Below are positions 40,777-56,478 of a stretch of 64,000 nt of DNA, in pieces; position 1 is the first letter of the stretch; each line of letters begins with the position of its first letter. The notes beneath the pieces were generated by a model. The model made no database searches. It saw only the letters and a list, made by a program, of their open reading frames with translations, and had not been told where the DNA came from. Origin of the DNA: Adhaeribacter aquaticus DSM 16391 (GTDB taxonomy: Bacteria; Bacteroidota; Bacteroidia; Cytophagales; Hymenobacteraceae); assembly GCF_000473365.1 (NCBI RefSeq), contig NZ_KI421517.1:4662296-4726295 (forward strand). Reading direction: 5' to 3'. A program made the position numbers and the translations under genes.

Positions 40777-40811
40777 TGTTCATCGGTAGAAAAGGCAGGT
40801 TAACCGAATAA
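40777..40811 (+). promoter_or_regulatory. Shared upstream element, copy A
   Basis: TGTTCATCGGTAGAAAAGG then CAGGTTAACCGAATAA, 60 bp upstream of the ATG at 40871. The same ordered words occur upstream of the genes at 54576, 56104 and 48455. Probably a promoter or activator site common to this set (inference). Confidence 0.65.
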
Positions 40812-40870
40812 AAAAATATGGCAACAGGATAGAGAATACCTTTCGGAAGAAATTTAGTTACAGATATCCG

Positions 40871-41998
40871 ATGACCCTTTTACCATTTGCTTTTTGCCGC
40901 TTTTCCACAGAACAGTTTTCTCTTAAAACTTTACAAAGATTATTTGTTTTACTTTTATCTGTTTTTATTATTTCTGCTAATTCAGCTTCAGCTCAAGGTT
41001 GCCTAAAAAGCGGCGAAGGCTTTAACATCAACTACGACGGCTATACCACTAATACGAGTTCGAAAGGCAACACTATCACTTTTACCTTCAAAGTTCAGAA
41101 TACCGGCAACAGAGCTTTAAGTCACCTGACTTTTTCTCTACCCTCTAACACAACTGCCCAAAACCCATTAAATACAAACAAAAACTTTAGATATAGAATA
41201 GAAAACCCAACTAGTTCTCCTTTTTACGGTTTCAAGTTCGAAACATTTGGTGAGGGACCTAAAAATGGAGAAATGGATGTGTTTTCTTATACTATTCCAC
41301 TTCCAGCCAACACCAATGCCAGCACGTATCTGACCAATGTATATCCTTTTATATCTGTAGAAGCTAAAGCGGGCACTACTTCCATTATTACCAAAAATTT
41401 TATTTTTAAATCAATAGGAGGCTGCGAAGAAGAATTGGATGGCCCTATAACTGCTTTACCAGTAACCTTAGCTTCTTTTACAGGTGCTAACCAGGGACAG
41501 GCAGTAGAGCTAAAGTGGGTTACCGCTACAGAAGAGAACAACAGCTATTTCCAGGTAGAGCGCAGCACCGATGGCAAAACCTTTAGCCAGATAGGACAAG
41601 TAGTAGGTAAAGGCACAACTAAACTGCAGCAGACTTACAGCTTTACCGATAAAGCTATAGCTTCGGCTACTTACTACTACCGCTTACGTCAGGTAGATTT
41701 TAACGGTGCTGCTGAATACAGCAAAGTAATAGCCGTGAAAACAAATTCATCCGTTACTGGTTTAGTTAAAGTATATCCTAATCCGGCTTCAGCCGCTTTA
41801 CAGGTAGATCTTTCTGCTTTTGCTTCTGGCAGCTATCAGGTTAAAATAGCTTCTTTAACGGGTACCATCCTAAGTCAGCAAGCAGTAGAAGCTGGTCAGG
41901 TAACTACCTTAGATATACAGGCTTTAACCTCCGGTGCTTACCTGGTACTTGTACAAGGCCAGGACCTGAATCAGACCAAACGATTTCTAAAAAATTAA
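40871..41998 (+). CDS. Secreted protein with T9SS type A sorting domain (module copy 1)
   Basis: A 375-residue exported protein. Signal peptide through VLLLSVFIISANSASAQ. The N-terminal domain (about 45-190) is beta-rich with FTFKVQNTGNRALSHLTFSLP, SPFYGFKFE and FISVEAKAGTT, and has Cys at both ends (QGCLKS, GGCEEE). The second domain (about 200-290) starts LPVTLASFTG and contains ELKWVTATEENNSYFQVERS and YYYRLRQVDFNG, the fibronectin-like module that precedes many T9SS tails. The C-terminal sorting domain (about 300-375) has VYPNPAS, GSYQVKIASLTG and FLKN. It would be exported by the type IX system and attached to the surface. Paralogue of the protein at 54576 over its whole length. Function of the N-domain unknown. 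Confidence 0.92.
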   Translation: MTLLPFAFCRFSTEQFSLKTLQRLFVLLLSVFIISANSASAQGCLKSGEGFNINYDGYTTNTSSKGNTITFTFKVQNTGNRALSHLTFSLPSNTTAQNPLNTNKNFRYRIENPTSSPFYGFKFETFGEGPKNGEMDVFSYTIPLPANTNASTYLTNVYPFISVEAKAGTTSIITKNFIFKSIGGCEEELDGPITALPVTLASFTGANQGQAVELKWVTATEENNSYFQVERSTDGKTFSQIGQVVGKGTTKLQQTYSFTDKAIASATYYYRLRQVDFNGAAEYSKVIAVKTNSSVTGLVKVYPNPASAALQVDLSAFASGSYQVKIASLTGTILSQQAVEAGQVTTLDIQALTSGAYLVLVQGQDLNQTKRFLKN

Positions 41999-42060
41999 AA
42001 GCAATCGAATCGTTACTATTAAAATTCAACTAATATATTAAATTCTCACTCAATACAGTA

Positions 42061-42098
42061 AAAGTATAAAAGCACCTGCAAAGGTGCTTTTATACTTT
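42061..42098 (+). terminator. Rho-independent terminator, bidirectional
   Basis: A perfect 17-bp stem (42061-42077 with 42082-42098), GCAA tetraloop. Confidence 0.93.
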
Positions 42099-42551
42099 TA
42101 GGACCTCCCGGTTTCCTTTATCTAAAGAATACTAGCATTACAAAATACATTATTTACAAATACAGCGCACACCATAACCCTATATATTAAACTTATAATT
42201 TGGGCAATTGCAGGAATAAAGAGCCACTTATGGACAGATCATTTATTTTTCTTACTAGCTTAAATTATAACAAAAACTTTCTTTTAACTTATTAAAGATG
42301 TTCAGGAGAATTTCCTTTACGAACAAGCATTACTATTCCATTATTATAATAAAATGAAGTGTATTCCAAAGTAAGTTACCTGATTAATGAAAACAAGCGA
42401 TAATACTCTTCGCCTAGCTACCTTCTTTACTTTATAACCTTTAGTTTCAGCCTCAAAATACCTAATATTGGGTATTGGCTAATACATAAACATGCTCTAT
42501 CTTTCTTCAATTTTTAAACTGTAGAACATAATACTTTTTGCCATCTGAAAT
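42099..42551. other. Intergenic, no gene seen
   Basis: 453 bp, AT-rich, no credible frame; presumed promoter region of the gene at 42552. Confidence 0.5.
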
Positions 42552-43016
42552 ATGACAAAAGCATGGGCCGGGGAAATTCAAATAAACTTAAAAGATAAAA
42601 CCCAGCAGGTTTTTGATAATGAGTTTTTATCTATCCAAGTAATTTCTAAAAAGTCTTTGTTGATTTTAATTTGGAAGCGGCAAATAACATTAAATGAACG
42701 GAAAGAAGGGTACACCCTAGCCCTCTCCATTACCGCCAAAAATAATATTACTTTCTGGCTTGTTGATGATTTACAATTATTTTTTATAGGACTTGAGGAA
42801 ATGGAATGGCTTGCAACCGAATGGATTGAAACTGCATCTAATTCTTCTCTTTTAAAAGTAGGAGTAGTTTCATCGGATTATTACCCAGCCTTAATTGCTA
42901 ATACTGAATTTACCAATTCTATAGGAAGCCAGTTTCAATCAAGAACTAAAATTCAACATGAGGTTTTTACCGATTACATAACAGCCTTAAACTGGCTATC
43001 ACCGGATAAACCATAG
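42552..43016 (+). CDS. STAS/SpoIIAA-like domain protein, 154 aa
   Basis: A soluble alpha/beta protein: FLSIQVISKKSLLILIWKRQ (strands), YTLALSITAKNNITFWLVDD, then EMEWLATEWIETASNSSLLKVGVVSSDYYPALI and a C-terminal amphipathic helix. It shares the VDDLQLFFIGLEEMEWL...W layout with the protein at 21799 (LNDTRLIVGGWDHSLEWVLNDW), so the two look like distant paralogues. No catalytic residues. Members of this group stand near two-component genes, but here the neighbours give no hint. Confidence 0.65.
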   Translation: MTKAWAGEIQINLKDKTQQVFDNEFLSIQVISKKSLLILIWKRQITLNERKEGYTLALSITAKNNITFWLVDDLQLFFIGLEEMEWLATEWIETASNSSLLKVGVVSSDYYPALIANTEFTNSIGSQFQSRTKIQHEVFTDYITALNWLSPDKP

Positions 43017-55736: not shown

Positions 55737-55765
55737 TATCTGGTAAATATTATAACCTCTTAATT

Positions 55766-55915
55766 ATGGAATCTTTAGACCTGATTAGTATAGCTTTAAT
55801 AGTGCTTTCCCTTGGGGGCGTTGTATTTATAGGCATTAAAGAAATCAGAGCTGCCAAGGCAAAAAAAGCCATGATGTACGGAAGGAAACGTAAACAGCAA
55901 AAACAACCCCATTGA
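55766..55915 (+). CDS. Small membrane protein with MYGRKR tail, 49 aa (module copy 2)
   Basis: MESLDLISIALIVLSLGGVV is followed by FIGIKEIRAAKAKKAM and MYGRKRKQQKQPH. Short acidic N-terminus, one membrane helix, basic tail. It matches the protein at 43774 in layout and in the exact MYGRKR word. It lies 29 bp after the stop of the T9SS-protein gene on the same strand, with no terminator between, so the pair is operonic. Predicted single-pass membrane protein; function unknown. The recurrence is the main evidence that so short a frame is coding. Confidence 0.82.
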   Translation: MESLDLISIALIVLSLGGVVFIGIKEIRAAKAKKAMMYGRKRKQQKQPH

Positions 55916-55973
55916 ACCCTCAAGTTTAGGTATTCCAGCGCTCTTTATAGACTATAGTTTAACTTCTAAAAAC

Positions 55974-56008
55974 TGTTCACCGAGTAAAAAGAAGTGTTTA
56001 ACGAAAGT
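55974..56008 (+). promoter_or_regulatory. Shared upstream element, copy C
   Basis: TGTTCACCGAGTAAAAAGAA then GTGTTTAACGAAAGT, 96 bp upstream of the ATG at 56104. Nearly identical to copy B over the last 20 bases. Confidence 0.65.
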
Positions 56009-56103
56009 TAGTATAGGTTAAGCTAAATATAGCCGTAGGCTATATTCTATAAAGTACATTTGAATATCAAACAAGGACAACAGAGATAAAAAGCATAAAG
56101 GAT

Positions 56104-56478
56104 ATGAAAAAGCACTTACTACTATTAGCCTTCACATTAGTACTTTCAACAGTAGGATTTGCTAATGGAACTGTGGATCAGAAAAGATTTGATGCTACTT
56201 TAGATCAGCAGGTAAGAGTAGAAGTTCGCCAGTTACAGGAGCTGCTTCGTTTCAACGAATTTGAATACATCCAGATCAAGAAATTAACCGCAGCTGAGTT
56301 AGCAGATTTACAAGCAGCTAAACAAACATATACAGATGCTGCCGAGCTACATATCCAATTACAACAAATTAAAGATGCTTATACTGCAAAAGTAAGTGCT
56401 TTATTAAACGACTCGCAAAAGAAAGCCTTCTCTGCTTATTTAGCGGCTACACAAGCCAACTTAATAGCTATTCAATAA
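56104..56478 (+). CDS. Secreted helical protein with FNEFEYIQIKKL motif (module copy 2)
   Basis: A 124-residue exported protein. Signal peptide MKKHLLLLAFTLVLSTVGFA, mature start NGTVDQKR. Helices are EVRQLQELLRFNEFEYIQIK, KLTAAELADLQAAKQTYTDA and VSALLNDSQKKAFSAYLAA. The block RFNEFEYIQIKKLT is nearly identical to the paralogue at 48455. A possible Spy/CpxP-like periplasmic helical fold is suggested by LND.QK...Y, but not proven. Its own shared element lies upstream, so it can be transcribed separately from the T9SS/MYGRKR pair. Confidence 0.86.
   Translation: MKKHLLLLAFTLVLSTVGFANGTVDQKRFDATLDQQVRVEVRQLQELLRFNEFEYIQIKKLTAAELADLQAAKQTYTDAAELHIQLQQIKDAYTAKVSALLNDSQKKAFSAYLAATQANLIAIQ

Follow-up and report, generated by a model that had tools for sequence, protein, structure and literature searches.

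How Bacteroidota match the production of type IX secretion system (T9SS) cargo to the other parts of the cell envelope is, to our knowledge, largely open. Among small periplasmic helpers, two LTxxQ motifs are the mark of the Spy/CpxP family. On the regulatory side, LytTR regulators are marked, in the part of PMC6193735 that deals with them, by repeats mostly separated by 12 bp and lying upstream of promoters, and TAnnTTTG, at -12 to -5, is given in a portion of PMC9723704 as the -7 box that sigma-A uses in Flavobacterium psychrophilum. Here we analyse a 64,000-nucleotide stretch of DNA (the window; contig C1, 4,662,296-4,726,295) of Adhaeribacter aquaticus, whose genome of 5.17 Mb is in four contigs. 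Genes for a T9SS cargo (C), a small membrane peptide (M) and a helical secreted protein (F) occur there twice in the order C-M-F, all on the + strand. What is new is a regulatory result: F and C have a promoter architecture in common.

Promoters of the F and C genes

Alignment of close F units revealed a common element at their 5' ends, and the same element is found upstream of C genes. The 18 promoters of F and C genes that were examined all have half-sites 21 bp apart, 16 to 19 of 20 positions fitting, and the last half-site starts 38 nt before a TAnnTTTG-like box, whose form across the set is [TC]AnnTTT[GC]. The F genes of A. aquaticus have a third half-site another 21 bp upstream. The set consists of twelve F promoters, four C promoters and those of the F orthologues of Adhaeribacter aerolatus and Adhaeribacter rhizoryzae. 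It covers 12 of the 14 close F copies, the two left out being C1:703362, which is masked with N upstream, and C1:2754893, which has lost its 5' end and lies behind a C gene.

In the window, the promoter of cargo copy 1 (40778-40844, +) consists of half-sites at 40778-40787 and 40799-40808, 21 bp apart, and the box TACCTTTC (40837-40844, +), 38 nt past the start of the second half-site. That of cargo copy 2 (54482-54548, +) has half-sites starting at 54482 and 54503 and the box CAATTTTG (54541-54548). The promoter of F copy 1 (48344-48431, +) has three half-sites, at 48344, 48365 and 48386, followed by the box TATCTTTG (48424-48431), and that of F copy 2 (55975-56062, +) has its own at 55975, 55996 and 56017, again in 21-bp steps, followed by TACATTTG (56055-56062). 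The ATG at 54576, from which the preliminary description had read cargo copy 2, is also the best start on this evidence, because the promoter box at 54541-54548 would contain the TTG start (54546) of the longer open reading frame.

The layout was scored by picking the best box at fixed spacing, and spacing was freed only in a separate grid test. In that test, at a cut-off of 17, 17 of the 18 promoters passed at 38 and 21 and no more than two at any other spacing tried, while shuffled sequences gave 0.005 passes on average. The 16 of the weakest real promoter was not reached in any of 1,271 control regions, taken upstream of mechanical ATG open reading frames of 150 residues or more with loci L105 and L160 removed before counting; the best scored 15.

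Because the half-site sets were derived from the same promoters, matrices trained on one family and applied to the other provide the fair test. When a weight matrix built from F promoters only was run over 946 kb, three C promoters scored 28.2, 25.3 and 23.2 and the fourth, found weakly, 15.8; a new site at L105 scored 29.9, and two unrelated sites 19.7 and 18.6. With the matrix built from C promoters only, L105 (27.2) ranked directly below the training sites and was followed by the twelve F promoters (25.6 to 19.1). One C promoter read in a shifted position (19.7) fell within the range of these twelve, and the next match had 17.7. When 2.40 Mb, some 46% of the genome with small overlaps kept in, were scanned with the promoter model, 18 sites scored 24 or more: the twelve F promoters, the four C promoters, L105, and one site at 24.3 preceding a 2,058-residue protein with PF18962 (51.5 bits, cut-off 27). 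This last site stands only slightly above background, as the next forward match has 18.4 and the best match on reversed sequence 20.1. Genome-wide, a two-half-site pattern, likewise drawn from these same promoters, found 11 matches with up to two mismatches, of which nine precede F or C genes, and nine matches when read backwards; all five matches with at most one mismatch belong to F or C. A 16-base version of the 5' element was discarded as unspecific (20 matches at one mismatch, and five with the pattern read backwards).

M and the fifth C gene were judged by rescoring with the promoter model, because our first motif search was insensitive and had missed four motif-carrying promoters. In the 300 nt preceding each of the nine M genes no score exceeds 2.7, where the training sites of F and C have 30 or more, and the motif is also missing upstream of the fifth C gene, which scores -6.5 against 34.8 for C copy 1.

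The common, strictly spaced promoter design suggests that F and C are made together. The reading we favour, to which we give a probability of about 0.5, is an envelope regulon in which one activator would turn on the surface cargo C and a periplasmic helper F together. The activator, probably of LytTR type, would bind the tandem half-sites of ~9-10 bp, 21 bp apart, the last of which starts 38 nt before a housekeeping -7 box, and would thereby turn on F and C at once. The F proteins, four-helix and secreted, would most likely act as periplasmic holdases or dampers of the Spy/CpxP type, with a role towards C, and C would cross the periplasm and be placed on the cell surface by the T9SS. M, which follows C in the compact copy, would probably be made with C as a small inner-membrane accessory.

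A LytTR-type activator is likeliest by analogy, because the repeats are spaced as in LytTR operators and the box is of the sigma-A -7 type; the 21-bp start-to-start distance seen in 18 of 18 promoters fits the spacing rule in the part of PMC6193735 that states it. The genome has six LytTR genes, none near F or C, and a LytTR gene adjoining F or C was dropped as a candidate regulator.

Gene families and their neighbourhoods

The six genes lie where the preliminary description had placed them, and its assignments of T9SS cargo, MYGRKR tails and an identical FNEFEYIQIKKLT core are upheld by PF18962 and by pairwise alignments. C copy 1 (40871-41998, +) encodes 375 residues with a signal sequence (by eye), an N-terminal domain of its own and a type A sorting tail, and C copy 2 (54576-55736, +) encodes 386 residues from the ATG; the two are 50% identical over 379 columns (E 2e-120). 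Both carry PF18962, the type A sorting domain of the T9SS, at the C-terminus (E 7.7e-12 and 1.4e-12; 45.8 and 48.1 bits, cut-off 27), and TIGR04183 is also above its cut-off of 23 (37.3 and 37.7), which makes them members of the type A cargo. The predicted C structure is poor, with a predicted local distance difference test score (pLDDT) of 51.7 and a predicted template modelling score (pTM) of 0.35. M copy 1 (43774-43929, +) is a single-helix membrane peptide (by eye) of 51 residues with a basic tail, and it has no regulon motif upstream; M copy 2 (55766-55915, +) has 49 residues. The pair is 36% identical over 42 positions (E 9e-9), with MYGRKR in both. F copy 1 (48455-48835, +) is a secreted helical protein of 126 residues, and F copy 2 (56104-56478, +), of 124 residues, has a signal sequence (by eye) followed by four predicted helices; they are 50% identical over 113 columns (E 1e-35), and FNEFEYIQIKKLT is the same in both. 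A terminator-like hairpin (56508-56530, +) follows F copy 2, and the similarity of close F copies stops just past its T run.

Two C-M-F sets are thus present, as the preliminary description had it, but they belong to larger families. A search of the genome at E 10 or better yields 17 F matches. Fourteen of these, one of them partial, are close (E 4.8e-25 or better), and they are divided between C1, with 12, and the 110-kb contig C4, with two. There are nine strong M members (E 2.2e-14 or better), with a weak tenth at C1:58078 (E 0.02), and five members of C. Across 80 genomes of the taxonomic family, an F profile found members in 76, with 18 in A. aquaticus and 0-6 in each of the other 79, and the C domain is present in 16. 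The seven other genomes of the genus each hold two to four distant F members by single-sequence search, and the M profile, searched in eight genomes, all of the genus, found nothing below E 0.01 in these seven. A scan of named genomes gave two F relatives, in A. aerolatus and A. rhizoryzae. No family rose above cut-off for F or M in scans of Pfam, NCBIfam and PADLOC.

Most M and C genes are close to F: no more than 10 kb separates eight of the nine M and four of the five C genes from an F gene, and the DNA within that distance of F amounts to 4.6% of the genome; because copies of shared descent are not independent, this clustering does not translate into a probability. Twelve 18-kb control stretches held no F and no M, and one protein that joined the C cluster. 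M matches across the 2.40 Mb are confined to F/C loci or the L100 locus.

This nearness of M to F, together with the repeated order and strand and a third row (C remnant-M-F) at L019 on contig C4, is what speaks for the model of the preliminary description, in which C, M and F form a duplicated operon whose products work in one complex. Against that model, F has its own promoter and its own terminator, several F copies have no C or M alongside (L016, L018, L020 and L022), M is without the motif, and no such trio was found in other genomes among the F places in the matches listed. C-M-F is not a conserved three-gene operon, since F and C are separate elsewhere in the family, among the matches listed, and M is without a match below E 0.01 in the seven congeners. 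Among the matches listed from the 80 family genomes, none outside A. aquaticus has C and F as neighbours, an outcome that, as far as F and C are concerned, the preliminary description had itself set against its model. The F orthologues of A. aerolatus and A. rhizoryzae (L065 and L066) have no C or M adjoining; in both species one F orthologue adjoins a gene for a 105-residue membrane protein. We consider the duplicated operon very improbable. Of the proposal that the partners work together, what stands is the tie of F to C through their promoters and the closeness of M to F, and the view that copy 1 was spread out by inserted genes found no support; the two clusters may have assembled separately. 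Within the compact copy, M is probably transcribed with C, because M copy 2 starts 29 nt past the cargo stop and no terminator-like site lies between them on the + strand.

The position of the C genes bears on a further explanation, that C captured an F promoter on landing beside an F unit and that the two proteins are unrelated in role. Such an accident would account for four of five C genes lying close to F while C and F are not neighbours in other genera, among the matches listed. It fits less well with C and F promoters that differ outside the half-sites and box, with an exact spacing kept by four mutually different C genes, and with the large cargo far from F that also scores above background; we regard it as distinctly unlikely and prefer the envelope regulon.

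Other genes recur at these loci. A small gene, S (43097-43288, -; 63 residues), has a relative at L023 (10933-11133, +) that is 47% identical over 59 residues; the family (63-66 residues) is without a Pfam match and occurs only twice in 2.4 Mb, each time adjoining a C gene, so that S is a possible fourth partner. A second family of single-helix membrane peptides (52-64 residues, by eye) is found in the window (47030-47197), at L024 (7613-7807, -) and at L100 (2185-2340, -). Two neighbour families of ~140 residues, which we take to be STAS-like, were set aside, and they were dropped as recurrent neighbours of F and C on account of occurring outside F/C loci too. At L021 (7573-9178), a C gene is followed by a masked stretch and then the last part of an F unit, with M missing, an arrangement that looks like a deletion junction. 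A 290-bp direct repeat in the window (51877-52167 and 59763-60052, 90% identical) has a third copy, at 75%, on contig C4 (L019, 11802-12268); its first copy overlaps a small helix-turn-helix-like open reading frame (by eye).

The F protein, its copies and an emptied locus

F is modelled as four helices (26-48, 52-75, 79-100 and 103-123; mean pLDDT 77, pTM 0.67) from a four-sequence alignment. Against this model Foldseek gave nothing below E 0.001 (best E 0.2). A second-look structural alignment gave Z values of 9.4 for STV (root-mean-square deviation 2.2, 76 aligned), 7.7 for CnrX (2.9, 81), 7.3 for Spy (3.0, 71) and 5.8 for CpxP (4.1, 79), which are below the level advised for helical bundles; unrelated proteins, for example one from an archaeal virus (Z 7.4), rank among them. 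By sequence, the F profile found nothing better than E 0.26 among solved structures, hhalign paired F with Spy/CpxP at a probability of 1.1% over 17 columns, which does not place F in that family, and, of 28 Pfam families for 15 F members, the 25 shown do not include the LTXXQ family. Among 13 aligned F members, all have Gln 105 and nearly all have Leu 101; four of the 13 have LTxxQ as the first motif, and the second Gln is missing in the A. aerolatus and A. rhizoryzae orthologues. F is possibly Spy/CpxP-like, then, as a lead only, drawn from the predicted fold and without sequence support.

The same structural rows, with CnrX and CpxP among them, would suit an F that is a sensor arm, binding the membrane sensor of the regulator at its periplasmic part and damping the regulon as a feedback brake and not as a chaperone of C. 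An F gene that carries its own promoter with operator, and two congeners where F, with its operator, has been kept alone and without C, agree with such a role. Fourteen copies are many for a brake, though, and no sensor gene was seen tracking F across sites, even if kinase genes adjoin two copies, at L016 and L021; we hold the sensor arm to be an unlikely, though credible, alternative to a helper within the regulon.

The site that the promoter scan found unasked at L105 (17178-17343, -; C1 about 1317.2 kb), which for that reason supports the promoter model, lies where A. aerolatus and A. rhizoryzae keep their F gene. The flanking genes, for an AAA-type kinase-like protein, the 105-residue membrane protein and an SDR protein, are 69%, 62% and 61% identical to those of the relatives, and the kinase-like gene of the relative carries PF13671. 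No F was matched at this locus at E 1, and a strong hairpin whose tail is rich in T (z -5.1) follows 55 nt past the box, with no gene between. As judged from the sequence, F has been lost from this ancestral locus, where its promoter is still recognisable; a small RNA is possibly made there. Just upstream of an F-like gene (LNEADY type) in three congeners (L057, L060 and L061) we noted a conserved micro-open reading frame of 23 codons (by eye), with 21-bp-step repeats further upstream and no box at 38 nt.

The coding sequences of F copy 2 (w56104) and of the copies at L016, L017 and L018 are 97-98% identical, and their operators down to 65-74% in some pairs. For w56104 and L019, the operator is 96% and the upstream flank 91% identical and the coding sequence only 77% (synonymous divergence, dS, 1.05). 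This mosaic of coding and operator identity points to exchange of coding sequence between F copies. The ratio of nonsynonymous to synonymous divergence (dN/dS) is 0.07-0.40 in eleven of twelve F pairs, those with a value. The units end sharply, at the operator and behind the terminator, and most pairs align outside them no better than unrelated sequence, a 5' flank being common to w56104, L017 and L019. Two histories fit this pattern: exact copying of the unit, or old copies homogenised by gene conversion as far as homology extends. A transposon with inverted ends was put aside: neither inverted ends nor a transposase was seen by eye, with no formal search made and the relatives compared at the ancestral locus only.

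These observations could be joined into a bolder picture, which we think improbable as a whole, of F as a self-homogenising dispersed cassette. Promoter-to-terminator units of ~560 bp would have been copied precisely to ~eleven places (two on the 110-kb contig), with coding sequences exchanged and the ancestral locus emptied to promoter and terminator hairpin, and the regulon would serve to set the dose of a periplasmic helper that is tied to surface cargo.

Relation to known systems

The promoter grammar described here, with half-sites in 21-bp steps and the -7 box 38 nt away, is almost confined to two unrelated families of secreted proteins, and gives a directly testable regulon and a route to its regulator and signal. 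It makes F a candidate periplasmic helper for cargo export, and the many-copy, gene-converted F family would be an unusual natural dosage experiment. A literature search joining Spy, periplasmic chaperone and type IX secretion found nothing.

F resembles Spy, CpxP and CnrX in being small, secreted and, by prediction, four-helical, with a similar arrangement in the second-look alignment, and its residues 95-111 (LLNDSQKKAF) are the stretch that hhalign pairs with the LTPEQ stretch of Spy/CpxP; unlike them, it lacks sequence membership, has 14 close copies and has a promoter in common with T9SS cargo. The putative operator is reminiscent of LytTR-controlled regulons such as HdrRM/BrsRM of Streptococcus mutans, for which the relevant part of PMC6193735 gives direct repeats, mostly separated by 12 bp, upstream of the promoter, although here the repeats number two to four and follow each other in 21-bp steps, the -7 box is of the Bacteroidota type and the targets are envelope proteins. 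Transcriptional control of type IX secretion genes is also known from PorXY-SigP of Porphyromonas gingivalis, which, in the portions of PMC4800418 and PMC8265659 concerned with it, controls machinery genes via an extracytoplasmic function sigma factor, whereas the genes that would be controlled here are those of cargo and F, from housekeeping-type promoters with tandem repeats.
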